Source of the DNA: Thuidium tamariscinum | Taxonomy: Eukaryota; Streptophyta; Bryopsida; Hypnales; Thuidiaceae | Assembly: GCA_947034885.2 (NCBI GenBank) | Contig: OX344754.2 | Coordinates: 11,949,501 to 12,013,500 of the forward strand | DNA: 64,000 bases | Direction of reading: 5' to 3' | Part shown: positions 1 to 45,451 of the stretch, one piece after another | How positions within the stretch are numbered: the stretch's first letter is position 1 | Layout: every line of letters begins with the position of its first letter | Notes under the pieces: model-generated | Databases searched by the model: none | Told to the model about the DNA's origin: nothing | What the model saw: the letters and a program-made list of their open reading frames with translations, nothing else | Translations under genes and position numbers: made by a program

Positions 1-406
1 CTCGGACCAGAGAAGATATCATTCTCAATATGCTGATGTTGCCAATGTCCGAGTCAAGCAATTCAGCACAGCTCAAGATGTAACACCCCCCACTCTGCAT
101 GCAACGCTCGATTTCTGCCAAGGAGAGTAACAACCATGATAGAGACTCCGCTTCTTCAATGGGCTTTACGACGATGGATGGTCCCTCACGCCATTGCAGC
201 ACCATTTGCACTAGTGCGGTGATCTTCTCCACACCGACCTGGTAGACATTTGCAAGTCTCTCACAGTCAACACGATTAGTCTTGACCACAATCAAGTTGG
301 TCCGTACTTGCTTCAATGTCTCTTCTTCCAAAACCTGTAGCGCGTACTTTAAATAGCAGGTTAACTCGTCCAAATAGACACCACCAAGTTCCATGAGAGA
401 AGTCAT
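1..406 (-). CDS. Kinase-IRG gene, copy A (5' part only, cut by window edge)
   Basis: This is the first 135 codons of a third copy of the gene seen complete at 9364-13176 and 19668-23549. The ATG is at 406-404; an in-frame TAG lies six codons upstream, so the start is well constrained. The frame is open to the window edge. The protein is helical and closely matches copies B and C (for example YLKYALQVLEEETLKQVRTN and SGGCYILSCAELLDSDIGN). It covers only the N-terminal helical region; the kinase and GTPase parts would lie to the left of the window. Nothing in the visible part is broken. Function is inferred from the other copies. Confidence 0.8.
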   Translation of the reverse strand, partial: MTSLMELGGVYLDELTCYLKYALQVLEEETLKQVRTNLIVVKTNRVDCERLANVYQVGVEKITALVQMVLQWREGPSIVVKPIEEAESLSWLLLSLAEIERCMQSGGCYILSCAELLDSDIGNISILRMISSLVR

Positions 407-9363: not shown

Positions 9364-10136
9364 TCAGAAAAATTTGCAACATTTCGAAACAAGACTCATC
9401 ATCGGTATTTTAGTCGAAACAAAAGTCCCAAGATCGGTATGGAGCGAATGCATGTCGAGGATTTCAAAGTCTTGTTTGCTGGACATGATGTAAACGCGTT
9501 GCTTCCGCAGCAACTCTTGGTCCCGCAAGTTCATTTCCGGGTCTGTCGCCATGGCTGTCATTAGACCCTGGAACTCTGAGCGAGTGACCTGCATATATTT
9601 GTCCACTATCTCCTGATACAACTTTTTATAAGAAAGCTTGTCACCAGGTTCAACACCGGTTTCGAGCCTGATCATGTTCGCAATATGCTGGTCGGCCTTG
9701 TTGCGTATAATGAACACCGGGACGTTGCACCGTATACTAGTTTTGATGATCTCCGCATCCATCCTAGAGAAACGCGCATCGTAAACCAGGAAGATGGCAT
9801 CGAAGATGAAGAGCCCTTGGTCATTGAAGTACTGCCCCTCTGGAGACGCCATAGTTCCAGCGCCTGGGACGTCGTAAAACCACAAGGCCCCCTTGAACGA
9901 TGGAAAAGTGGAAGCGTTGAGTAATTTTTTGAAGCGACTGATTTTAGATGTGCACTGGGTCACCCCTACACGCGCTGCGCCGACGTCTCCATATCCTAAA
10001 ACGCAAAAGGCGTTGATGAAGGAAGATATTCCGCTTCCGGAGGTGCCGCACACAGCAATGTGGACATTGAAAGATTCGAGCTGAATCCGATCCCTAGCAC
10101 CGGAGACTTGGCTCCGGGATGGCATGACAGCGGGCC
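9364..10136 (-). other. IRG-like GTPase exon of copy B
   Basis: Encodes about 257 residues with a Ras-like GTPase order. G1 is GTSGSGISS, the switch region holds GAARVGVTQCTS, G3 is WFYDVPGAGT, G4 is NKAD and a likely G5 is MSSK. The pattern VHIAVCGTSGSG, SSFIN, GAARVGVT and DVPGAGT resembles immunity-related (p47/IRG) GTPases. The P-loop lysine is replaced by Ile, in the position where IRGM-type proteins have Met. The C-terminal helical domain of animal IRGs is missing; the helical exon upstream may substitute. The exon begins at an AG acceptor (10138-10137), not at its internal ATG (10125), because splicing keeps frame through GPAV before that Met. Confidence 0.75.
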
Positions 10137-13100
10137 CTATGCAATGCAGAACAACAGCATCTTCTCGATCACAGCATCAGACAACAATTGACAGCAACGA
10201 TTCAACTTGAAGAGCGAAATCCAAAGATCAACCTCAACCTCGGCACAGAAAGAAGGATTCTTCCCAGGTCCCAAAATTTCAGTATATGTTCGAATTCGGG
10301 GAATCTAGAGAAATTTGCTACATGAATCCTGGCATAGGGAAGACCAGATATCAAACAATAACGAGTCCATACCTTGAAGACTAGCAAAAAGCTCCGTGAT
10401 GTCATACAGGGCCTCAGAGCTAAACAACCCGAGTAGTCCGCATATGGCAATTGAAATACGCACACAGTGATGAACTCCAACCTTGCAAAGTGAATATTCC
10501 ACCTCTCTCAATGACCATCGCACATCCAATATGCATTTACGTAGACGTTCCACATCGGCCAAGCATAGCCTCTGAATCCAAGATTTCGTCGACTTCTTCA
10601 TGATCGACTCTGTACATTCTTTGATCCACGAGAGGTCATGCTTCAGTTTACTGCACACAGCATTACATCCTCCATCCGACCTTGCAATATTTATCACACT
10701 CTGTATAGTCTCTGTAACTTGCAACGCTCCTCGAGAGCAGTTTAGTAACACCGGAGCTTGCACTCTTCCCTTCAACACATGATGCACCTGGATTTGGTTA
10801 TGCAGAGATTGTTACTCTTGACTTGATACATATACTCTCATCAAAAATTAATTTGATCCCTCACGAATTGAACATAAAAAGAAACAAACACATCTCTATA
10901 GAGGATAAGTGCCCATCCATACGTACCTTGCTTCCTGAGATTGGGGACGATGAACCAACTCCTGATGAGGTCTCACTTCCGTTGATATTCGCCCTTCTGG
11001 TTTTCAAAAGGAAGGACCATTTCAATAGGCATACTCTTGACAAGAACACTCTGATAGACAAGAAATGATCGAATGCACATGATTCACAATCCAGTGTCAC
11101 TAGTGGGATCTGGCAGCTAATTATTGCGCCCACCATTCAAATGTTCCACCGCACATATTTTCGAGATCAGTGCAAGAGTTGACCAGGGAGGATATGAAAT
11201 GGAGTTTACCATCTCACTTGAACCATAACCACCTGCTAAATGCTTAAACTCCATTTCATTTCTTGCATGGAAAACTATCCTAACTCCTTGTCTACAGGTG
11301 GGGTTAAGAGTTCACAGGGTCTCCCATTACCTTACACATGAATCGAGGTAAGTTTTAAATCACAAGAACAAACGACCATAATGAAATCTAGAAGAAAATC
11401 TCACACAAAATGTTCCTACAAATGCACATTGAAGAGCCTTGAAGCTATGAATCAAGTCGAACAGGGCATGCAAGTTCAGAACCTGGAATCCAGTCGAAAG
11501 CAAAAAGTTTGCCAACTTGTCGATGCGTTCTCCATCATGAAAAAGTGAAACACCTTGCACTCCCACAACCTTCGGTGCACTTCGAAAATATCAGGTCGCT
11601 CTTCTGATTTCAGCTTCCAACAATCTTCAACCAGCCTTCTCAAAGGATCTCCAGCACCGAGAGGAAGCTCAGGCCTCTCACCTCCACGCACTGCCGCAAG
11701 AGTATTGCCGATGTGTGCCATGTATTTTTTAAACGGAACGACGCCCGTCAAAATTTCGGAACACACCAAGCCGAAGCTGTACACGTCTGCTTTCCAGGAG
11801 TACCCATGCTTTCCACACCCCTCAGGCAATAACGTGGCAGTCATAACCTCAGGCGCCATATACGCTGGGGTACCTACTCGAAGTGTGCTGAATATAGAAT
11901 GACCATTATCTCGGACCTTCGAAGTCCCAAAGTCGGCAAGCTTCACGCGATAGAAGCGCTCACATGGTTTCGTGCGCTCATCTGGCCGACTCAAAAGGAT
12001 GTTGGCCGGTTTCAGGTCACGGTGAATCACCCTCTGAAGTCTCAAAGCACACATTCCTTCCACAATTTGAGAAATTATGTCCATCGCGACATCAATTGGA
12101 AACACAAGCGAATCACCACTCAGCCGTCTCCTCTCACTGATGATGGTGCGTAGGTCTGTTTGCATCTGCTCCATCACATAAAATCCTTGAGCCCTTCCCT
12201 CCGTGTACCCAAATCCAAAAGTTTGCACTGCGTTCGGATGACGAAGTGATGCAAGAATCGAAACCTCCCTCTCAAATGCCCTCTCACACTCCAAGTGTTC
12301 AGGATCTAGCTGGATTTTTTTCACCACCATTTCTTTGTCATGCCATTTGCACCTAAACACAGTGCCAAAACTTCCCTGTCCCAAATACTTTTGATCTTGC
12401 ACGTCTTGGTGGTCAATTCTTGACGGCGATGGGCCACCAGGTTGAACACTTAGCTCTTCGAATACTGAAACGAGATCTGGTTTACAGTTGTTTCCCGGAT
12501 GACCAAGATGTCCTTGATCGTTGTAAGCAGCTTCTCCGACCAAGGCAGAGAATTGCCAGAGTTCTTGTCCCAAATCCAAGAAGCACTGCTTCAGAACTGG
12601 TCTACGTCGCCTTTCACACCATTCAAAAAGTTCAGACGGTCGACAATGATCCAGCAATTTAGCAGCAAGACCTTGCCACTCGTAGAAATCCCCCAAACTT
12701 TCATGTCTCCTGTGTTTGCACTTCGAGATGCTGAACACCGCCTGCACCAAATCCAGGCTGAAAGAAAATTCTCGGACGAGAGAAGATATCATTCTCGACA
12801 CGCTGATGTTGCCAATGTCCGAGTCAAGCAATTCAGCACAGCTCAAGATGTAACACCCCCCACTCTGCATGCAACGCTCGATTTCCGCCAAGGAGAGTAG
12901 GAGCCATGATAGACACTCCGCTTCTTCAATGGGTTCTACGATGATGTATGGGTGGTCACGCAATTGCAGCACCATCGGCACAAGTGCGGCGATCTTCTCC
13001 ACACCGGCCTGGTAGATATTTGCGAGTCTCTCACAGTCAACACGATTAGTCTTGACCATAGCCAAGTTCGTCCGCACTTGCTTCAATGTCTCTTCTTCCA

Positions 13101-13176
13101 AAACCTGTAGCGCGTATTTCAAATAGTAGGTTAACTCCTCCAAGAGGACATCACCGGGTTTCATGGGAGGAGTCAT
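9364..13176 (-). CDS. Helical-kinase-helical-IRG-like GTPase protein, copy B (four exons)
   Basis: Model: complement(join(9364..10136, 10373..10787, 10927..10996, 11483..13176)), 983 residues. The ATG at 13176 is fixed by an in-frame TAG six codons upstream. Exon 1 carries an N-terminal helical region (residues 1-255) and a TKL-like kinase (about 260-540). Exon 2 is a 70-nt Ser/Gly-rich linker, exon 3 a helical segment of about 138 residues with a hydrophobic stretch (ISIAICGLLGLF), and exon 4 an IRG-like GTPase. The intron phases (2, 0, 1) all close in frame, and copy C does the same. Donors are GTTCTG (weak), GTACGT and GTATGG. Exons 3-4 have no conserved start of their own: exon 3 opens with GTG here and ATG in copy C, and an in-frame stop precedes exon 2 in copy C. 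That is why I join kinase and GTPase. If the weak first donor is not used, they are two adjacent genes, with the kinase ending at 11476. No stops or frameshifts. The kinase resembles an active signalling kinase. A role in innate immunity or membrane targeting is inference. Confidence 0.7.
11172..11290. repeat. Decayed foldback in intron 1 of copy B
   Basis: Inverted arms (11172-11207 and 11245-11290, including ATGAAATGGAGTTT and its complement) with a loop of about 37 nt. The same place in copy C (21508-21636) holds a perfect version. It lies in the predicted 486-nt intron between the kinase exon and the linker exon, so the insertion predates the B/C duplication. Confidence 0.6.
11560..12399 (-). 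other. Protein kinase domain of copy B
   Basis: All catalytic landmarks are present: glycine loop GQGSFGTV (residues about 266-273), the ATP-binding lysine in MVVKK (about 286), the helix-C glutamate region AFEREVSIL, HRDLKPANILL (385-395), DFGTS (415-419), and GTPAYMAPEV in the activation segment. HRDLKPAN favours Ser/Thr specificity and the overall look is tyrosine-kinase-like (TKL). It is therefore predicted to be active, unlike plant MLKL-type proteins, which pair an N-terminal helical bundle with a pseudokinase. The preceding 255 residues are mostly helical; likeness to a HeLo/DUF1221-type bundle is a guess from layout only. Confidence 0.85.
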
Positions 13177-19667: not shown

Positions 19668-22600
19668 TCATAAAGTCAGATCTATGACACATTTGTAACA
19701 ATCCGATACAAGACTTATCATCGGTATTTTAGTCGAATAAAAAGTCCCAAGATCGGTAATGAGCGAATGCATGTCGGGGACTTCAGAGCCTCGTTTGCTG
19801 GATACGGTGTAAACGCGTTGCTTCAACAGAAGCTCTTGGTCCACAAGGTCCATTTCCGGGTCTGTCGCCATGACAGCCATTAGACCCCTGAACTCCGAGG
19901 AAGTGGCCTCGACATATTTGACGGAAATCTCCTGATACAACTTTTTGTAAGAGCGCTTGTTACTGGGTTCAACGCCGGTTTCGACCCTTATCATGTTCGC
20001 AATATGCTGGTCGGCCTTGTTGCGGATAACGAACACCGGGACGTGGAACCGTAAACTGGTTTTGATGATCTCCGCATCGATACTTGAAAAACAGGCATCG
20101 TACACCAGGAAGATGGCGTCGAAGACGAAGAGCCCTTGGTCATTGAAGTATTGCCCCTCTCGGTATGTCATAGTTCCAGCGCCTGGGACGTCGTAAAACC
20201 ACAAGGACCCCGTCAATAATGGAAAAGTGGAAAAGTCTTGGTAGCGAGAGATTTCAGATGTGCATTGGGTCACCCCTACACGCGCTGCGCCGATGTCTCC
20301 ATCTCCTAAACCGCGGAAGTTGTTGATGAAGGAAGATACTCCGCTTCCGGAGGTGCCGCAGACAGCAATGTGGACATTGTGGGGATTGAACCGAATCCGA
20401 TCCATTGCAACGGCGACTTGCTCCTGGGTTGGCATGTCAGCGGGCCCTATGCAATGCAGATCAAGAGCATCTTCTCAATTACAGCAACATACGACAACTG
20501 AGCAACGATTCAACTTGCAGAGCGAAACCAAAAGATCAACCTCAACCTCAGCTCAATCAAATGTTTGCACAAACAGAAAAAAGGATTCGTCCCAGATCCC
20601 TCAATTTCAGGGTACATTTAAATTTTAAGAAATCTAGAGAAATTTGCTACTTGAATCTTGACATAGGGAAGACCAGATATCAAACAATAACAACTCCATA
20701 CCTTGAAGACTAACAAAAAGCTCCGAGATGTCATACAGGGCCTCAAAGCTAAACAGCCCGAGCAGTACGCATGTGGCAATTGAAATACGTATACAGTGAT
20801 GAACTCCAACTCCAGCCTCGCAAAATTTATCTGCCACCGCTCTCAACGACCCTCCAAATTCCATTATACATCTACGCAGACGTTCCTCATCGGCCAAGCA
20901 TAGCCTCAGAATCCAAGATTTCGTCAACTTCATCATCATCGATTCTATACATTCTTTAATCGAAGAGAGCGCATCCGCCATTTCAGTGCACACAGGATTA
21001 CATCCTCCATCCGACCTTGCAATATTTATCACATTCTGCATAAGCTCCGTCACTTGCAACACTCCTTGAGAGCAGTTTAGTAATACCGGTGCTTGCTCTC
21101 TTCCCTTCAATACATGATGCATCTGGATTTAGTCATACAGAGATCGCTACTCTTGACTTGATACACACAATCTCATCAAAAATTAATTTGATCCCTTATG
21201 AATTGAACATAAAAAGGAACAAACAAATCTCCATAGAGGCTAAGTGCCCGTCCATACGTACCTTGCTTCCTGAGATTGGGGATGATGAACCAACTCCTGA
21301 TGATGTTTCACTTCCGTTGATATTCACCCTTCTAATTTTCAAAAGGGAGGATCATTTCATTAGGCATACTCTTGACAACAGTAATCTGATAGCCAAGAAA
21401 TGATTAAGTCTACAAGATTCACAATCCAGTGTCACTCGCGGGGTTTGGCTGCTAATTATTGCACCCAGCATTGTAATGTTCCACCGCACATACTTTCAAA
21501 ATCACCACAAGGGAGTTAGAAGAGTTGGCCAGGGAGGAAATGAAATGGAATTGACCATCTCAATTGAACCGTAACCACCTGCTAAGTGCTAAACTCTATT
21601 TCATTTCCTCCCTGGCCAACTCTTCTAACTCCCTTGTCTACCGGTGGGGTTAAGGATAAGAGTTCATAGGTTTCCCATTACCTTACAAATGGAACGAGGT
21701 TCTAAATCACAGGAACAAACGACCAAAATGAAATCTCCCTTATCTTCTAAGATGTAGAAGGAAACCCTACAAAAAATTGTTCCTACTCATGCACATTAAA
21801 GAGCCTTCAAGCTATGAATCAAGTCGAACAGGACGAGCAAGTTCAGAACCTAGAATCCAGTCGAAAGCAAAACGTTTGCCAGCTTGTTGATGGTTGCTCC
21901 ATCATGAAAAAGTGAAACACCTTGCACTCCCACAACCTTCGGCGCACTTCCAAGACATCAGGTCGCTCCGATGAATTCAGCTTCCAACAATCTTCAATCA
22001 GCCTTCTCAAAGGATCTCCAGCAGCGAGAGGAAGCTCAGGCCTCTCGCCTCTACGCACTGCCGCAAGAGTATGGCCAATGTGTCCCATGTATTTTTTGAA
22101 CGGAACCACGCCCGTCAAAATTTCGGAACACACCAAGCCGAGGCTATACACGTCTGCTTTCCAAGAGTAGCCATGCTCTCCACCCCCCTCAGGTAACAAC
22201 GTGGCGGCCATAACCTCAGGCGCCATATACGCTGGGGTACCCACTCGAGGTGTACTGAAGATAGAATGACCATCACCTCGAACCTTCGAAGTCCCAAAGT
22301 CAGCGAGTTTCACGCGATAGAAGCGCTCAAAGGGTTTCATGCTCTCATCTGGCCGATTCAAAAGGATGTTGGCCGGCTTCAGGTCACGGTGAATCACCCT
22401 TTGAAGTCTCAAAGCACACATTCCTTCCACAATTTGAGAAATTATATCCAACGAGACATCAATTGGAAACACAAGCGATTTACCACGCAGCCTTTTCTTC
22501 TCTCTGATGATGGTGCGTAGGTCTGTTTGCATCTGCTCCATCACATAAAATCCTTGGGCCCTTCCATCCGTGTACCCAAATGCAAAAGTTTGCACTATGT

Positions 22601-23549
22601 TCGGATGACGAAGTGATGCAAGAATCGAAACCTCCATTTCAAATGCCCTCTCACACTCCAAGTGTTCAGGATCCAGCTGGATTTTTTTCACCACCATGTC
22701 TTTGCCATGCCATTTGCACCTGAACACAGTGCCAAAACCTCCCTGTCCCAAATACTTTTGATCTTGCACGTCTTGGTGGTCAATTCTTGACGGCAATGGG
22801 TCACCAGGTTGAACACTTAGCTCTCCCAATACTGAAACGAGATCTGATTTACAGCTGTTTCCCGGATGACCAAGATGTCCTTGGTCGTTGTAAGCAGCTT
22901 CTCCAACCAAGGCAGAGAATTGCCAGAGTTCTTTTCCCAAATCCAAGAAGCACTGCTTCAGAACTGGTCTACGTCGTCTTTCACTCCATTCAAAAAGTTC
23001 AGATAGTCGACAATAACCCAACAATGCAGCAGCAAGATCTCGCCACTCGTATGAACCCTCCAAACCATCATGTTGATATCTCCTGTGATTGCACATCATG
23101 ATGCTGAACACCGCCTGAAACAAATCCAGGTTAAAAGAAAACTCTCGGACGAGAGAAGATATCATTCTCGACATGCTGTTGTTGCCAATGTCCGAGTCAA
23201 GGAATTCAGCACAGCTCAAGATGTAACACCCCCCACTCTGCACGCAACGCTCGATTTCTGCCAAGGAGAGTAACAGCCATGATAGAGACTCTACTTCTTT
23301 GATGGGTTCCACGATGATGTATGGGTCGTCACGCCATTGCAGCACCTTCGGCATAAGTGTGGCGATCTTCTCTACACCGGCCTGGTAGACATTTGCAAGT
23401 CTCTCACAGTCAACACGATTAGTCTTGACCACAATCAAGTTGGTCCGTACTTGCTTCAATGTCTCTTCTTCCAAGAGCTGTAGCGCGTACTTTAAATAGC
23501 AGGGTAACTCGTCCAAGTAGACATCACCAGGTTCCGTGAGAGAAGTCAT
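19668..23549 (-). CDS. Helical-kinase-helical-IRG-like GTPase protein, copy C (four exons)
   Basis: Model: complement(join(19668..20446, 20702..21122, 21262..21331, 21850..23549)), 989 residues, same exon layout and intron phases as copy B. The kinase keeps GQGGFGTV, the VVKK lysine, HRDLKPANILL, DFGTS and GTPAYMAPEV. The GTPase exon keeps GTSGSGVSS (Val where copy B has Ile, again no P-loop lysine), WFYDVPGAGT and NKAD. Exon 3 opens at CAG|ATGCATC, so a separate GTPase gene starting here is possible in this copy but not in copy B. The predicted first intron (518 nt) carries a perfect 39-bp-arm hairpin. Small in-frame differences from copy B (for example one codon more near residue 157, two more in exon 3) preserve the frame, which argues that both copies are still under selection. 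Partners and substrate are unknown; a defence role is inference. Confidence 0.7.
21508..21636. repeat. Perfect 39-bp inverted repeat in intron 1 of copy C
   Basis: Arms 21508-21546 and 21598-21636 are exact reverse complements (starting CAAGGGAGTTAGAAGAGTTG) around a 51-nt loop. The matching foldback in copy B is clearly mismatched. It would form a strong hairpin in the pre-mRNA. Confidence 0.85.
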
Positions 23550-37832: not shown

Positions 37833-40800
37833 TTAAGTGAAGGTTCCCACTTTGGGATGAGTTAAATGCCAACTCATCTGCATGTGAGACCTTTCACCGA
37901 AAAAATTGGTTTGGAGCCAAATAGCATCGAAGCGCTGGAGAAAGGTGCCTGCCTTATCTGGATACATGACACACAGCGAAGAAGTCTTAAGCCATGCTCC
38001 TCGAGCATAATCAAGAAAAGCTTCCCACAAAGTTAATTCTAACTTATGGGTAGGCTAGACGTCACTATTAAAACAGATGGCATTGCGGTCAAGCCATACA
38101 ACCCAAATCACAGAACCACGAATTAAAGACCACATGGAAGTCCCTTTTTTCAGACGTTGAGGAAGTTTAGAGCCCAAAATGCATTGTTGCCAAGTCAAAC
38201 TTGGCCAACATCCTGCCACCGGTGGAATCTTCAACGCCTGATACAACACTGAGAGGGCGAAATCCCAAGCGTGCCGAGTTTTATCACACTGGTAAAAGCG
38301 ATGGAGGATGGATTCGTCAATACCTGCATGACAGCTTTGGCATTCCGTAGAGATATCCGGGCATATCGTTCTCCTCCAGCAATGGACTGCAATGGCACAG
38401 TGGTAAAGGGACCACAAGAATCCCGCATCCTTTTGGGGCCTGTGTTTACTCCACACCTCACTTCATCTGGATTTGTAACCAGTCACTAAGACGCCATTCC
38501 ACTTTTCATGAATAGGCTTACGTAGTTGTTTACGGCAAGTCAACAGAGACCTACCGAGCTTCGTGGAGTACGATTGCAGGGGTCTAGATTCTCCCCAAGA
38601 CCATCTTCCGGGATCAAAGAATAGTTCTTCAATAATTCCCACGTAAAGGGGGGGCCCTTTTAGTGATTGAGTTACCCTGATTCTTTTAAAGAATCCTGTG
38701 AGAAGTAACCCGTCTTGTATTGCAGCTTGAGGGCTAGATCGAAGGATGGAGGATCTACGGCCCACCGTAAAGTAAGGGAAGTCAGGGGGAAGTTCGATTG
38801 AATGGTGATTCTGGGCAAGTCAGGGTTTAAACCGCAGAGTCGTGATGAATACCAGAGATGGGAGAGTATCCGATGCGTGAGGGAAAAAACCGATATATTC
38901 TTGTTTTGTCGTCACCCCTCACTCCACAGTAAGTTTGCGAATCCATGGTGTTGGAACTGTGGAAGTTAATCTTCTGTAGATTGGAGTGTCCTCACTGCTC
39001 ATGCCAAATTGCTCGCTGGCTGACTCCCACGAGAGAAAATCTTGACTGTCTGGATTCCATATATCTTTAAGCTGATCCATTCCGTTCACCATTAACCGGG
39101 ATGCTCTAGATGCCGAAAAACCATGATTACCCCTATATAAACCGTAGTCCACCAGATCGAGGTAGTAAGGACTTCATCACCATTTTTTGGGGGAACGGCG
39201 AAGATGTGTTTATGAACCAGTCTCCATGCCTTAATAATATGGTCCCATGCCCGAGAGCCTTTCCTTGCTTGGAATTTACCAAGCATTGCCCATTGTGCCA
39301 TAGGAGGCCAAGTACCTTGTGATTGACGCTTGAGCTGGAGGAGTTTGAAGCATAGAAAAAATTGGAGATTAGAAGTACCTGGAGTCATGGCTTTAAGCAC
39401 CCATTTTGCCATCATTGCTTGAAGAGCTTCCTCAGGGTCCACAATATTTAACCCTCCAATTAGTCAAGATGCGCAACAGTCAAACCAGCTTACTCTGGTA
39501 CGACATCTGTGGGTAGTTTTTGACCATAGAAAATTGCGTAACAAGCCACGTATTTTTCGAATAACAGCAAGGGAACCCCCCCATATGGCTATAAAATACC
39601 AAAGAGTGCTTAAAAGAACTGCGTTGATGATTACTACTCGGCCAGCGAGAGATAAGTGAATATTGACCCAATAGTCAAGTTTTTTCTGTACTTTGCTTTC
39701 AAGGAAAGCATCAGTATCTGGGGTGTGTAGATTGATTCCAAAAGGAGAACCGAGAAGTTTTTCCATTTGATGCTCAATCGCCCAAGGACATTGAATGTCG
39801 GAGAGCCACGTAGGGGCTGGTGCCGTTGAAAGCCAATAAGTCAAGCTTTTCCCCCAGTTGATACACAACCCCGAAGCTAGTCCATAACGCTCAATAAGTA
39901 GGGATAGACGACGAAAATACCGTTCCTCTCCTCGGATTGTGAAATTGACATCATCGGCAAACTGGCTAATAAGTTGTTCAGCTGCCTCTTCTGGTAATGT
40001 GATACCTGCTAAGTCACCCTTCTCCATAAGATGCTTAGCTGCCACATTCAATGCTTCCTTAATAAAGAGGAATAAGTAAGGTGCCAGGGAGCATCCTTGA
40101 CGGACCCCTCTTAGCACTGGAAAGGATGCAGAGTCAATACCATTAATACATATTGACGAATCGGCATTGGTAAATAAGAGCTTAACAATGTTGATGAAAG
40201 TAGGAGGAATCCCCATCACTTCCAAAACTGAAAATAGAAATGGGAGGTGTACTGAGTCATACGCCTTTTGGAAATCTAATTTCAATAAAATCGAGTCTTG
40301 GTCTGATTGTTTTGCCCAGGAGATCGATTCATGCACTAGCAGAATATTATCCAAAATATATCGGGACGGTATGAATGCCGACTGATCAGTTGATATGATT
40401 TCGGCTAGGATTGGTTGGAGGCGTCTCTAGAGCGCTTTGGCAAGGATCTTGTAACCAGTGTTGAGTAAACTAATAGGCCTCCAGTTGGTGATTTCGTCCC
40501 TCGAACCTCCTTTGTGTAAGAGCGCGATTGTACCTTTATTCATCCCTAAAGGTAAGGAACCTTGATTATTTGATTGCTGGATTATTCTCGTGAATTCCAT
40601 CCCTATCAAGTACCAATATTTTTGATAAAATTCAGAAATGATTCCATCTGGGGTTGTTGCAAGAAACACTTACCGGTTTTGGCTCAAAATGGCTCAAAAT
40701 CAATGAGTCCTGTGAGTCCTATGACCCTTTGAAATAAAAAGAATTTTAAATGAAAAAAATATGGATAATTTGAAGAGCAATGAGAATATTATGTCTCTTG

Positions 40801-42829
40801 AAATTCAGACCTAAGAAATTTTTTCTCTAAATGTTATAGACAATGGAAAATACAATGAAAATAGCTCTTTTTTCACTAATTTGGTAAAAATAGTACAAAA
40901 ATTCAAAAAATTAAAATTAAAAATCCTTTTTTTCTTCAAGTAAATCTCTTTCTTTTCCAACAAATTTCATCTTTGGAAAAAATAAATTCTATTCTCTACA
41001 CCTACGCAAAGTCAGCCACTTTGATGACATGTGGAAGTTGGACAGTTTAATATTTTCAAAAATCCTTTTTAGGGATTGTGTAACTATACTATAGATCTAA
41101 GCATGCCAATTTTTAGCTCAAAATTTTCATTTTTGAGTCAAAAATAGGACTAAAAACCCCCAAAATGGCCAAGGTAGACAGCCAATTGGGGGCAGTTTAA
41201 AAATAGTAAACTAATTTTAAAAAAACTGAAAAAATTACACAACATATAAAACTTTTGTGTGCACCTTCATTCCAAATTTCAAGTTGATAGGGAAAAGGAT
41301 GCAAAAGTTATGAGCAAAAAACTACCTATTGGAGGTCAAGGGGACAAAAAATAGGACAAGTGTTTCTTGTAATCACCCTCTGGTCCTGGACTCTTGTGCG
41401 GGGCCATCTCATCCAACGCCAATTTCAGCTCTTGTTCGGTAATTGGAGTAGATAAGATAGCTTTTTCCTCAATAGACATGTTATCAGATAAAAGATCAAG
41501 GAATTCCTTCATTGCTGCAGTTTTTTCTGGAGATGCTGATTCCACTGAATAAAGATTATTGTAGAAATTGGAGCAGATTTTTCGCATACCTTCGCTATTT
41601 GTGACAGCTTGACCTTGCGGGTTCTGAAGTCTCGAGAGTGTTGATGAGGCAGGCTTTTCTCGAACCGCCTTGAAAAACTCCGCTGAAACCATATCGCCCC
41701 GCAGTTTCCATCGGATCCTCGAACGAGCCCGTTGCCCAACGATCTTTTTTGTTTCAACCTCTTGTAAGTTGAACCTTGCCGCTCCATGCTATTGCTGGAG
41801 GCTAGAGTCCTTAGGTTTTTGTTGGAGAAGTGTCGAGGCAGTTGAGAGTTCCTTATGAGCTGCATCCTCAACTGCGCAAAAATCTAGAGCCTTATCTTTA
41901 CAAAAGGAACGATATGCTTTGGTTACCTTCTTTAATTTTGAAAAAAAAGACGATGATGGGGAGGAGTTATACCATGCCCATTCAATAACTGGTTTAGTAG
42001 ATTCCAACCACTGGCTGCTCATCTTCCAACGGGAGGGACGAGCAGGGGAACTGTGAAACTCAACCAACGCTGTTACAAGAAGATGATCAGACCATGCATT
42101 GTCGCATCGTATAGTATACTCCATGAGTTTCCTACTAGAAGAACCTGATTCGTTTTTGAAGAGATACACCTTGTCCAGCCTTGCTAGGATACGCTGATCG
42201 TCCCTTCGGAAATTGTCCCACACGAAGGGTGAGCTACCCGCTGACCGTGGATTGTCCTCCATATGAAGGTGTCTTTTTAGGTTGGAAAAAATAGCCCTTT
42301 CTAGTGCTCAAATCATTCTACCGCACGTACTGGTCTTATCTTGTCTTGATTCAACCATGTTGAAGTCTCCTGCAAGTATCCACCGACAGCCATAAGGGAG
42401 GACACGAATCATGGTTTCCCATAACTGACAGCGAGTATGTGAGTCATTAGGAGCATATAGGTTGACTACTCCTATATTACCTCCCGGGAAACCTTTGAGA
42501 ATGAGCCACTGTGCCCTGTTCTCTAGAATTGTTCCTGAGTCTACAACCATGTGAGAAAACTTGGGAGCTAGTAACGTAAGGATGCCCCTTCGCCCAGCTC
42601 CATTGCCAGTAGGATCATTATTGTATCCTACACTAGCAGGGGCTATCCATGTGGAGGCTTGAGGCCAAATGAGCTTACCAACATTTTGTGCGTCCTGGTT
42701 CCTCAATTTATATTCTTGGATGAAGATGATGTCCAAGGGTGGAATCGATTGGATGTAGTTGCGCAACAGTGACACTGAGGCCTTATCGTTTAGGCCTCTC
42801 ACATTGAAAGATAGTAATCATAAAATCAT
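37833..42829 (-). pseudogene. LINE ORF2: endonuclease, reverse transcriptase, zf-RVT; broken
   Basis: It starts at ATG 42829 (MIL, then a TGA where LLSFNVRGLNDKA follows). The APE-type endonuclease (42829 to about 42000) keeps IQEYK, NLYAPN and AGDFNMV. The reverse transcriptase (about 41340 to 39460) keeps KSPGP/PDG, NWRPISLLN, LLKLDFQKAYDSV, GVRQGCSLAPYLF and QFADD. The zinc-binding C-terminus (zf-RVT, 38456-38055) shows WRRTICPD, CQSCHAGIDESILHRFYQC. The frame ends at a natural TAA (37833). Damage: TGA at codon 4 and near 42305, TAG at 40424-40426, TGA at 39461-39463 and 38463-38465, TAG near 38052, one frameshift between about 39090 and 39150, and the nested transposon, which with its target duplication adds 732 bp and so leaves the frame aligned. 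Confidence 0.9.
40651..41378 (-). mobile_element. 728-bp non-autonomous DNA transposon nested in LINE ORF2
   Basis: It splits the conserved KSPGPDG motif of the reverse transcriptase. The inverted ends read GGGTGATTACAAGAAACACT and GGGTTGTTGCAAGAAACACT. The 4-bp target TCTG is duplicated (40647-40650 and 41379-41382), and removing the element plus one copy restores the codons for GPDGIISEF. It belongs to the same family as 48415-49134 and 50258-50979, in the opposite orientation. Confidence 0.85.
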
Positions 42830-43242
42830 TGACGGGTGTTGGAGAGGGAGGATCTATTGGCGGGGTCCTCAACGCTAGGAAGTGAAAGTCCAGATTTGTA
42901 GCCCCATCCGTCATATCCAACCTGCACAGGAGTGATCGATGGTGTAGATGGGGATGAGCTGAGGGCGCGAGCTGCTGCTCGAGCATTCTTGACGGAGATA
43001 GTTAATTCTACAGCTGGGATGGAAGATGATGGGACAACGCTTGTGGTCGTAACTGGTGTCTAAAGTCGACTTGAGTCAGGTACGTCTTGATTCTCCTGAG
43101 TATGTCGAATTCTTGGTGCAGTGAGCTGTTGAATTGCTTTGTAAGCTCTCTTGTTATCCCTAGCTTCAGCCCTACTGAATTGAGATGATAGGCGAGAGGG
43201 GTTTAGAGAAGTTCTAGAACCTTGAGAATTGTTGTCGTGGCC

Positions 43243-45216
43243 CTAGGGAGAGAATTGGATTGATCGAGGTTGTAGCGGGTTGAGTAGAGGTTGTCCCTGT
43301 TGCCCCAAATTCTGAATTCCAAGCTTAACAGGTGAGAATTGCTTGCACTGAGCGTCCTCAAAAGCCTCTTCCTCATATGGTGACGGTCCTTCTTCATCGT
43401 CAACTGGTTGATTTCCTTCTGAATCATCAGAGAAAGCAAATCGTTTACCTTGTGTGAGATCAATCCCAAATAAGGCCAACGTGATGCTAGCTGGTTCTAA
43501 GGGGCCATGTTGAACTGAGGGAGGGCAAGAGTGCGGTTGTGCCGAGCTCAACTTTGGTGCCTGTTGCGGAAGGTGGGGCTGGGAGCATTGACCCGGGTTT
43601 GTTATCGAGTCGATCTTTGGTGCAGCGCCAATGGACTCGCTTAGCTTGGCTGATTGAGGGGGGCTGTCATCTTCGATCAGATCCTCCTGCTCCACTTGAT
43701 CAACTTCCATGATACGTTCCTGCTCTTCTGCTAAGTGGAGCATCTACTACTCAATCTCGGCTTCAAGGGAAGAGTCGATATTCTTGTCTTGATCAGTGGT
43801 ATCGTCGATCTCGATGATGTTTGACAAATGGACCGGATTGTCGATCGGTCGGAGTGGGGGGGGGGCCGGGGGAAGGATTTCTTGTACTTCTAATTCCTCT
43901 TGGGGGTTTGCTAATTGAGGCGGGTGAAGGCAGATGAGAACCTAATCGACGGAAGATTGTGGCAGATTACCGTATCCACTTATTTTGTCCTTGGTCGAAG
44001 TTGCTCCATCAAGAATTGCAGTTGAGTTTTGGATGAGATTTGGCATGGCATTTTCCACCTTTGGATATTCAATATCCATTGCTACCGGTTTAGATGCCCT
44101 TGCGTCACTTTCAGCTTGCTGAGTGTAAGATTGGTGTCGACGCCGCGGCTTCGACTGCTTCACCTTCAACTTGTTGTTTTTCCGTACCACCAACGTAAAC
44201 CCCTCCTCATCAGGTGAAGAAGGTTGTGAAGATTGTTGTCGAGGTGTGTTATCAGGATGAGAACGCACACGTTGCTCGGATCGATGACGATGACGATCTG
44301 GTAGTGGTTTGCCTCTGTATTGAGTTAGACCTCCCTGTTGTGCCGCCAGAGGAGGTGACGGTAGGATGCCCCGGCTTGGACAGTCCGATTCTTCATGCTC
44401 CAACCCCGGGCATCGGCGACAGATGGTATCCACAATTTCATATTCAATTGTAACTTCAGAGAAGAGCCCTGTCACGTTAGCCACTGAAAGCTTCAATGTG
44501 TAACCAACGACAGGGTTGATAGCAATGCAAAACCTTGGGTCAACATTGTTAAGCATGTTCCTATCTTCATCGAGGACCGTGCCTACAATACTAGCAAATT
44601 TCTTCGCTTCATGTTGGTGGAACTCTAGTGGAAGATTCTTGAGGTTAATCCAGCAAGGGATTCCTAATCCTATTGGTTGGCTAGGGTTAAATGCAGGAAT
44701 CCATCGTTGAAGGATTGCAATGCTAATCTTTAGGCGGCATGGGGAAAGATCAAGGGCTTGTTTGACTAGCTCTACTGACGCAAGTTTGATAAAATGAAAG
44801 CCACCTCCTACGTACATGTAGAGTTCGATCCTAGAGTTGATCAGAATTTCAATCTCCCGAATCCAGTGTTCATGGTTGGTTGATGGGGGCAAGTCAGTCG
44901 TGAATCTAACAATAACGACATGGAGTTTAAAGTAAGCTGCCTCCTGTTTAAGCGCCACCATGTCCAGTGTCGACGCTAGCACTTCCACACAGTCGCGTAT
45001 CGGCAGCCCGTTAGGGTTACGGTGTACATCCGATGGCGAGACTGGAATTTGACGCACGTTTTGAGTATCCTGGTGTAGCATCTGAGATGCCACAGCAAAG
45101 TCCGTGGCTGTAACCCTACGGCGGTTATTCAAAGCAAGCCCGAAGGAATCTAGAATACTAGATCTAGAAACGCACCTGTCACACCGTATGGCGGCGGCGT
45201 AGTTAGGCGCTGACAT
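43243..45216 (-). pseudogene. LINE ORF1 (DUF4283 and CCHC zinc knuckle), stops inside
   Basis: The ATG is at 45216. The first 424 codons are open, then the same frame continues to 43243 through TAG stops at 43942-43944 and a double TAG at 43744-43749. Residues about 95-215 look like DUF4283 (GIPCWINLKNLPLEF and similar), followed by a CX2CX4HX4C zinc knuckle at 266-279 (CRRCPGLEHEESDC). Beyond it lies a Ser/Gln/Arg-rich basic tail with RRRH. This is the nucleic-acid-binding protein of plant L1 elements that coats the LINE RNA. All three internal stops are TAG, consistent with C-to-T decay of CAG codons. Confidence 0.85.
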
Positions 45217-45451
45217 TCTAGTGTATTAGGTTATACTAAGACGGTTTGCGAAACTAAGGTCGAATATACTGAACTAAGCTCAAGTTTATCAATCGCATGT
45301 GCACACATGAACGTGACCGTAGCAATTCGGGAAACAACAAGTCTCAAGATGATGCATTTCTTTGTGAAACTAGCTCGGATTTGTGGTGCGGCAGCACCAC
45401 ACGACTCCTCCAACTCTCACCATCTCTTCCAATCCAAAGCCTTGCAATTTT

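Follow-up and report, generated by a model that had tools for sequence, protein, structure and literature searches.

The window analysed here is a stretch of 64,000 nucleotides of the moss Thuidium tamariscinum (contig OX344754.2, called C6, positions 11949501-12013500), which we compared with the whole genome (363 Mb in 19 contigs). It carries cassettes of four exons on a single strand, which encode, in order, a protein kinase, a short linker, a helical region, and a G domain resembling the IRG GTPases. An earlier note on this stretch had proposed that the kinase and the GTPase are joined in a single chain, and the evolutionary evidence, drawn from the DNA alone, supports each cassette as one gene with one predicted chain.

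Organization of the cassettes

Re-translation bore out the four exons, their junctions and the intron phases (2, 0 and 1) proposed for copies B and C (Table 1). These two copies are indeed duplicates, but the genome contains five cassettes rather than two. Four are in or around the window on C6 and one is on another chromosome (C2), and the exon order is common to all five. In a tblastn search, the kinase exon gave five near-full-length matches with 79-100% identity and a sixth, at C2:29.35 Mb (L028), with 44% identity across almost all of the exon. The 9.9 kb read at L028 contained neither a helical nor an IRG match, although the 23-codon linker could escape detection there, and this kinase paralogue is a candidate for the unfused state. 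The GTPase exon matched 11 places, namely the five kinase-linked genes (copy A being split in two), three stand-alone frames, and two degraded pieces on C7. With the Pfam IIGP model, eight places were found, all above its cut-off, which are the five kinase-linked and the three stand-alone ones. Significant matches of the helical exon 3 were confined to the five cassettes; the next best place (E = 0.33) was taken as chance. Intron 1 of copy D reaches about 1.5 kb owing to a 991-nt insertion whose ends match in inverted orientation (CAGTCAGGTCCAGCTCAATT..), resembling a small DNA transposon.

Table 1. Features of the cassettes and of the rest of the window. Positions are those of the window unless a contig is given; a slash marks an exon boundary and, between numbers, the last and first exonic base.
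Feature	Position	Strand	Remarks
Copy B	within window	-	983-codon spliced frame
Copy B exon 1, N-terminal helical region and protein kinase	11483..13176	-	Pkinase; open in all five copies
Copy B N-terminal region, residues 1-245	12442..13176	-	motif N-x-x-x-C-x-x-L, also present in further kinases of this genome
Copy B protein kinase domain	11569..12396	-	active-type motifs
In-frame TGA closing the unspliced kinase frame (..LDSRF, stop)	11476..11478	-	in all five copies
Copy B intron 1	10997..11482	-	donor AG/GTTCTG, acceptor AG/AAGGG; first ~75 nt unusually conserved
Copy B exon 2, linker	10927..10996	-	70 nt; ends SGSK/GTACGT, phase 0
Copy B exon 3, helical region	10373..10787	-	helicity read by eye, not modelled; no known family
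Copy B exon 4, IRG-like G domain	9364..10136	-	IIGP match
Copy B P-loop GTSGSGIS	10024..10047	-	lysine replaced
Copy B junctions	11483/10996, 10927/10787, 10373/10136	-	
Copy C	within window	-	989-codon spliced frame
Copy C exon 1 (kinase)	21850..23549	-	
Copy C exon 2	21262..21331	-	
Copy C exon 3	20702..21122	-	
Copy C exon 4, IRG-like domain	19668..20446	-	IIGP match; P-loop GTSGSGVS
Copy C junctions	21850/21331, 21262/21122, 20702/20446	-	
Copy A	kinase exon start at 1..406, remainder before the window (L021)	-	GTPase exon frameshifted, which truncates the spliced model to 885 aa
Copy D (L020)	C6:12.07 Mb		983 aa spliced model
Copy E	C2:7.38 Mb		975 aa, only with a shifted acceptor for exon 3
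LINE-like (long interspersed nuclear element) retroelement remains	39464-45225	-	fragments of reverse transcriptase, endonuclease and DUF4283, each in a frame of its own

Family assignment of the G domain

Exon 4 matched the Pfam IIGP profile above its cut-off (75.6 bits against 24), with E-values of 5.1e-21 in copy B and 2.1e-21 in copy C, and IIGP was matched at E<=0.01 by all seven moss members scanned (B, C, D, E and the stand-alone frames L023-L025; copy A was outside the scan). IIGP lies far ahead of any other family. The next one is MMR_HSR1 at 0.0011, and neither AIG1 nor septin is among the Pfam matches with E<=1. Every one of the 13 PDB sequences matched below E = 1e-7 is an IRG protein, and the one other match (E = 2) was regarded as chance. 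The AlphaFold model of the G domain, built from two sequences, had a pLDDT of 57.6 and a pTM of 0.56. A Foldseek search with this model (pLDDT ~58) gave 18 matches with E<=0.001, all IRG, with TM scores of 0.32-0.47 and root-mean-square deviations of 7-12. Profile search and PDB matches agree with the IRG-like assignment made earlier. Foldseek points the same way, but with so modest a model it is tentative as to an IRG fold with its flanking helical domain.

The P-loop of the kinase-linked copies reads G-T-[S/Y]-G-S-G-[I/V]-S. The lysine is absent in all five, whereas the rest of the motif is kept in four, copy E having Tyr for Ser. The final triplet is GIS or GVS in 5/5 copies and neither GKS nor GMS; the stand-alone relatives have GKS in 3/3. 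Because the lysine is absent throughout, the kinase-linked G domain may not be a working GTPase. It is an IRG domain by profile and may or may not bind nucleotide.

The stand-alone frames L023-L025 (C2:8.79-8.82 Mb) have 416-535 codons and N-termini that look like coiled coils by eye, preceded in L024 and L025 by a hydrophobic stretch (also by eye). Judged from their frames, they make up an independent family of IRG-like proteins in a plant. The two pieces on C7 (L026 and L027) are degraded, the matched part containing one in-frame stop in the former and seven in the latter, indicating that the IRG-like family has turned over. An origin of the IRG part from bacteria or viruses was likewise considered and set aside. 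Pattern scans gave 49 prokaryote and 37 viral stretches that fitted a pattern, none of which was confirmed as a relative, although patterns derived from moss would miss distant ones, and tblastn of the IRG part in 50,697 phage records found no relative.

Kinase motifs and the N-terminal region

Exon 1 of copy B matched Pkinase at residues 261-536 (E = 2.6e-44). The catalytic Lys (VVK), the catalytic Asp (RD) and DFG are present in 5/5 copies, in keeping with the active-type kinase described before; copy E has YRD in place of HRD and a degenerate glycine loop. The best PDB matches of the kinase are 6lba (E = 9.1e-27) and 6ka4 (E = 9.8e-24), which we take to be Arabidopsis MLKL-type proteins, and A-Raf nearly equals the latter (1.5e-23). 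Kinase matches in NCBIfam and PADLOC were treated as generic kinase similarity, those in NCBIfam being far below their cut-offs.

The N-terminal 245 residues alone had no PDB match, and against Pfam they gave chance-level families only (E>=0.12, each in one of six members). When 13 kinase N-termini of this moss were aligned (A7), columns N44, C48, L51 and C113 were invariant in all 13 rows; this alignment left out L029, L031, L032, L033 and the other kinase of L030, in which the motif was not seen by eye, and also L036. An hhalign comparison of the region with other moss kinase N-termini gave P = 0.0003 and a probability of 39.6. The profile of six other moss kinase N-termini (A6) matched 6lba with E = 0.12, ranked behind three designed repeat proteins that were taken as artefacts. 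The A7 profile had a sole match with E<=10 among 177,635 PDB sequences, namely residues 25-109 of 6lba, at a sub-significant E = 0.66. A structure model of the kinase exon (pLDDT 30) was discarded. The MLKL-type comparison is tentative for the kinase, and an MLKL-like N-terminal four-helix (HeLo) bundle is only hinted at, as a lead and not a demonstration.

Exon 2 and the kinase-NBS-LRR genes

Exon 2 has no indels among the copies and a pooled ratio of nonsynonymous to synonymous substitution rates (dN/dS) of 0.16 in the fused frame. All such ratios given here are pooled pairwise Nei-Gojobori estimates from few copies, and their counts are not independent. Variable sites at codon positions 1, 2 and 3 number 0, 3 and 7 (7/10 at the third position; Fisher p = 0.026), and random placement of substitutions leaves the exon open in 1477/5000 trials, which says little for so short an exon. 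Exon 2 evolves as a coding sequence would in the fused frame.

Among the next-best relatives of the kinase in this genome, L038 and L040 have a kinase exon, an NB-ARC exon (GMGGVGKS, above the NB-ARC cut-off) and LRR-like repeats recognised by eye. This is the arrangement of the PK-NBS-LRR (PNL) genes, a class that is restricted to mosses in the proposal of Xue et al. (2012, PMC3352924). The kinase exons end with ..GLGSPICSSSK/GTATAATG in L038 and ..GLGSSICSSSK/GTATAATG in L040, and the NB-ARC exons start with /VHEAKP and /VYEAKP, respectively. Together with five exons on C8 that lie beside NB-ARC places and were chosen by reading-frame length and place, 7/7 PNL-type kinase exons end with ..SSK/GTAT[A/G]ATG in phase 0. 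Exon 2 of the cassettes likewise ends in phase 0 with ..GVGSSSPISGSK/GTACGTAT (GTACCTAT in E), the boundary reading ..SGSK/GTACGTAT, and exon 3 starts with /VHH in B, D and A and with /MHH in C, the acceptor AG being lost in E. When exon 2 was aligned with the L038 tail, the sole tail so tested, with the junction as anchor, the score of 24 was reached by 14/20,000 shuffles.

The genome has at least 126 NB-ARC places. Of the 19 kinase places on C8 found with the cassette query, at least 11, counted by eye, have an NB-ARC place within ~4 kb downstream on the same strand. None among the at least 126 listed adjoins any of the five cassettes, where exon 4 is IIGP instead.

With a related kinase, the same phase-0 boundary and a similar linker tail, the cassettes as predicted follow the moss PNL exon plan, which suggests a common origin with the PNL kinase genes. 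If exon 2 derives from the former tail of a kinase exon of PNL type, it would always have been part of the kinase gene, and intron 1 would lie in a later insertion. This likeness would be the main new argument for one chain. Several points weaken it. The unanchored local alignment is weak, its score being reached by 708 (L038), 1102 (L040) and 8600 (L050) of 20,000 shuffles. Moreover, the likeness was recognised post hoc, exon 2 is rich in Ser and Gly, and L040 has VY rather than VH.

Intron 1 and the choice between one gene and two

The donor GTTCTG after the kinase, which the earlier note had named as the weak point, is off consensus at +3 to +6 and weak as a sequence, but it is invariant in 5/5 copies. 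The calculated pairing of this site (11482) with U1 is -5.6 kcal/mol in B and -4.0 in C, and the intron 2 and intron 3 donors of B have similar values (-5.9 and -6.2 kcal/mol). Between 11690 and exon 2, 21 GT dinucleotides are kept in all five copies, 6 before and 15 after the kinase stop. None of the 15 conserved sites after the stop yields an ATG-started frame entering exon 2 in phase 2 in all five copies. The best candidates for a separate first exon of a GTPase gene, 11335 (B, D and A) and 11041 (B, C and E), do so in 3/5 copies only and were rejected. Donor 11482 gives an ATG-started frame into exon 2 in 5/5 copies. Because the ATG test covered the segment from 11700 down, the GT sites within the kinase frame were judged by phase. 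In the last ~215 nt of this frame, the conserved sites in the right phase are 11566, 11551 and 11482, and the last of these has the strongest U1 pairing in B (-5.6 vs -3.7 and -3.6 kcal/mol); sites 11553 and 11580 give an ATG-started frame in another frame in 4/5 copies.

Exons 2-4 had been described as having no conserved start codon of their own. For exons 2 and 3, no conserved start was found. Directly upstream of exon 2, C and D have no in-frame ATG (the frame closes 7 and 10 codons upstream, respectively), and B, A and E have one each at differing places. Exon 4, however, has an in-frame Met near its start in 5/5 copies (PAVM/PADM/LAVM/PVVM).

The latter observation bears on the most serious alternative, which we nevertheless consider rather unlikely. 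In this alternative, two neighbouring genes were duplicated together. The kinase would end at the TGA (a 571-codon stop-to-stop frame), and a downstream IRG-like gene would start at the exon 4 Met or at an undetected first exon. Several observations favour two genes and weigh against fusion. The TGA is invariant in 5/5 copies, which a fused gene leaves unexplained, and stand-alone IRG-like genes exist in this genome. Besides the weakness of the donor, a conserved site at 11330 (AAG/GTAATG), 152 nt past 11482, pairs better with U1 (-6.6 kcal/mol). The ~75 nt after the stop (window 11408-11475) are 90% identical in the five copies with one 1-nt gap, an identity as high as that of the kinase-exon end. 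This conservation would suit two genes or a second product, and fusion gives no explanation for it; a coding or splicing reason was looked for in this segment and none was found. Past the stop, another frame (..VLNLHILFDLIHSLKALQCA) can be read by eye, which is changed in B and meets a stop sooner in C; it was left unexplained. On the other hand, exons 2 and 3, which lie upstream of the exon 4 Met, look coding. In addition to the low dN/dS of exon 2, random placement of substitutions leaves exon 3 without a stop in C, D and A in only 5/5000 trials (E left out). No conserved start was found for exons 2 and 3, and the position of the exon 4 Met is an internal Met in the stand-alone L023 and L024 and a Trp in L025. 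On balance, we infer that intron 1 is probably spliced and that a cassette would give one polypeptide. Given the weak donor and the invariant stop downstream of it, messages that retain intron 1 would yield the kinase alone. Such an isoform beside the fused one is possible, and the ratio of the two may be regulated.

Reading frame and selection in exons 3 and 4

Gap events are multiples of three in 11/13 cases in exons 3 and 4 vs 5/25 in introns 1-3 (Fisher p = 0.0003); this count omits the one gap in the 75 nt after the stop, which is not a multiple of three. Random placement of substitutions keeps exon 4 open in 71/5000 trials for C and D and in 2/5000 for C, D and E. Exon 3 had no Pfam match and no significant PDB match, those at E = 0.07-1.3 being taken as chance.

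The pooled dN/dS is 0.56 for the N-terminal region, 0.33 for the kinase over the five copies, 0.89 for exon 3 and 0.67 for exon 4 (without copy A), which would fit a conserved signaller and a changing sensor. Segments were compared in B, C, D and A for exon 3 and in B, C and D for exon 4; the segment borders follow motifs and were placed with sight of the alignment. The part of exon 3 that precedes the first shared in-frame Met (codons 1-62) has a ratio of 0.57, a point against two genes. Along exon 4, the values are 1.73 for the first 22 residues, 0.81 for the P-loop stretch, 4.6 for the loop before G3 (26 vs 2 pairwise-summed changes at few sites), 0.22 for the G3-G4 core, 0.62 for residues 156-205 and 2.0 for the rest. 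A kept core with changing loops would fit a sensor under diversifying selection, although the counts are low and two copies, A and E, carry damage.

Other features of these exons tell against a maintained IRG part. Variable sites are spread evenly over codon positions 1, 2 and 3 (44/46/41 in exon 3 and 83/73/78 in exon 4), so that the substitutions alone show no constraint. With dN/dS near 1 and no excess at third positions, relaxed constraint may also fit. The GTPase exon is frameshifted in A and has lost 16 codons with G3 in E, which is also without the acceptor AG of exon 3; decay of the GTPase part is therefore possible. These features, together with the P-loop lysine missing from all copies, would be expected if the gene is fused but only its kinase is of importance, the IRG part being a passenger in decay. 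We regard this as improbable, as the G3-G4 core has the low ratio given above, the indels are mostly in frame, and the rest of the P-loop is kept in 4/5 copies.

Discussion

The explanation that we favour, with modest confidence, is one gene per cassette, whose main product would be a single kinase-IRG fusion of ~980 residues on the PNL plan with the IRG part as sensor or decoy. The chain would run from the N-terminal region through an active Ser/Thr-type kinase, a short Ser/Gly linker and the helical region to a lysine-less IRG-family G domain, the NB-ARC part of the PNL exon plan being exchanged for the helical and IRG part. This part could act as a sensor or integrated decoy that resembles the GKS IRG-like proteins of the genome and pairs with these or with their attackers. 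A change in it would free the kinase/N-terminal module, which would then signal or act on membranes, and the proportion of fused and kinase-only forms may be regulated. The domains and their order, the five copies, the kept frames, the lost lysine and the PNL exon plan in the same genome are shown by the sequence, and from there we infer the sensor role, the isoform switch and the link to the stand-alone GKS relatives.

In mice, a P-loop change from K to M marks the GMS group of IRGs (PMC1297648), which keeps the GKS effectors inactive (PMC4837601). We give little credence to the analogous view that the cassette product regulates the stand-alone GKS IRG-like proteins as GMS (IRGM) acts on GKS IRGs in mice, the contact switching the kinase, because, although the same residue is changed (K to M in mouse GMS, PMC1297648, PMC4837601; I or V here) and GKS relatives are present in this genome, the lineages are too distant to assume a shared function and the replacement residue differs. 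A further idea, which is a long shot, is that mosses possess an IRG-type defence, in which GKS proteins at membranes would be guarded by a lysine-less IRG welded to an MLKL-like active kinase on a kinase-NBS-LRR chassis, triggering cell death. This would be a receptor class with an IRG switch instead of NB-ARC.

The kinase and the G domain each have known relatives. Among the papers listed by searches of the open-licence literature, none had a title or abstract start on IRG-type proteins in mosses, and the kinase-IRG combination was not met. IRG GTPases are best known from animal cell-autonomous immunity. They carry a long C-terminal helical domain, which cannot be complete here because the cassette chain ends ~100 residues after G4. 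They are described as a vertebrate resistance system of obscure origin, for which Bekpen et al. (2005, PMC1297648) found no unambiguous homologues outside vertebrates. The existence in a plant of a family that scores above the curated IIGP cut-off, some members having the lysine and others not, is relevant to that origin. The cassettes share with the vertebrate GKS and GMS proteins an IIGP G domain, the DVPG and RNKAD motifs and, as in GMS, a changed P-loop lysine (PMC1297648, PMC4837601). They differ in occurring in a plant, in having I or V rather than M at this position, and in placing the G domain at the C-terminal end of a kinase chain. In mouse Irgb tandem transcripts, an IRG unit seems to be expressed solely as an in-frame 3' portion of the gene preceding it (PMC1297648), but the upstream partner there is another IRG and not a kinase.

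Plant MLKLs are generally pseudokinases, whereas VVK, RD and DFG are all present in the five copies. The Arabidopsis MLKL-type proteins (6lba and 6ka4) provide the best kinase matches and have an N-terminal region ahead of the kinase, to which homology is only hinted at, and the cassettes have the helical and IRG part in addition. Wheat kinase fusion proteins such as Pm4, Sr43 and Lr9 also join an immune-type kinase to another domain, and they illustrate that such fusions can act in resistance. Their partner domains and lineage are different, and they are resistance genes, whereas the moss fusion is predicted from DNA.

The closest precedent, which the earlier note had missed, is provided by the kinase-NBS-LRR genes of the same genome. 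Like moss PNL genes (PMC3352924), the cassettes have an N-terminal kinase exon, a phase-0 intron after ..SK, an NTPase exon next, and clustered copies. They differ in that the NTPase is IRG-like instead of NB-ARC, that an extra intron splits the kinase tail, and that the phase 2 and phase 1 introns are outside the PNL plan. If the fusion is true, the moss kinase-NTPase receptor plan accepts a different NTPase, and the rules of such domain exchange could be tested within one genome.

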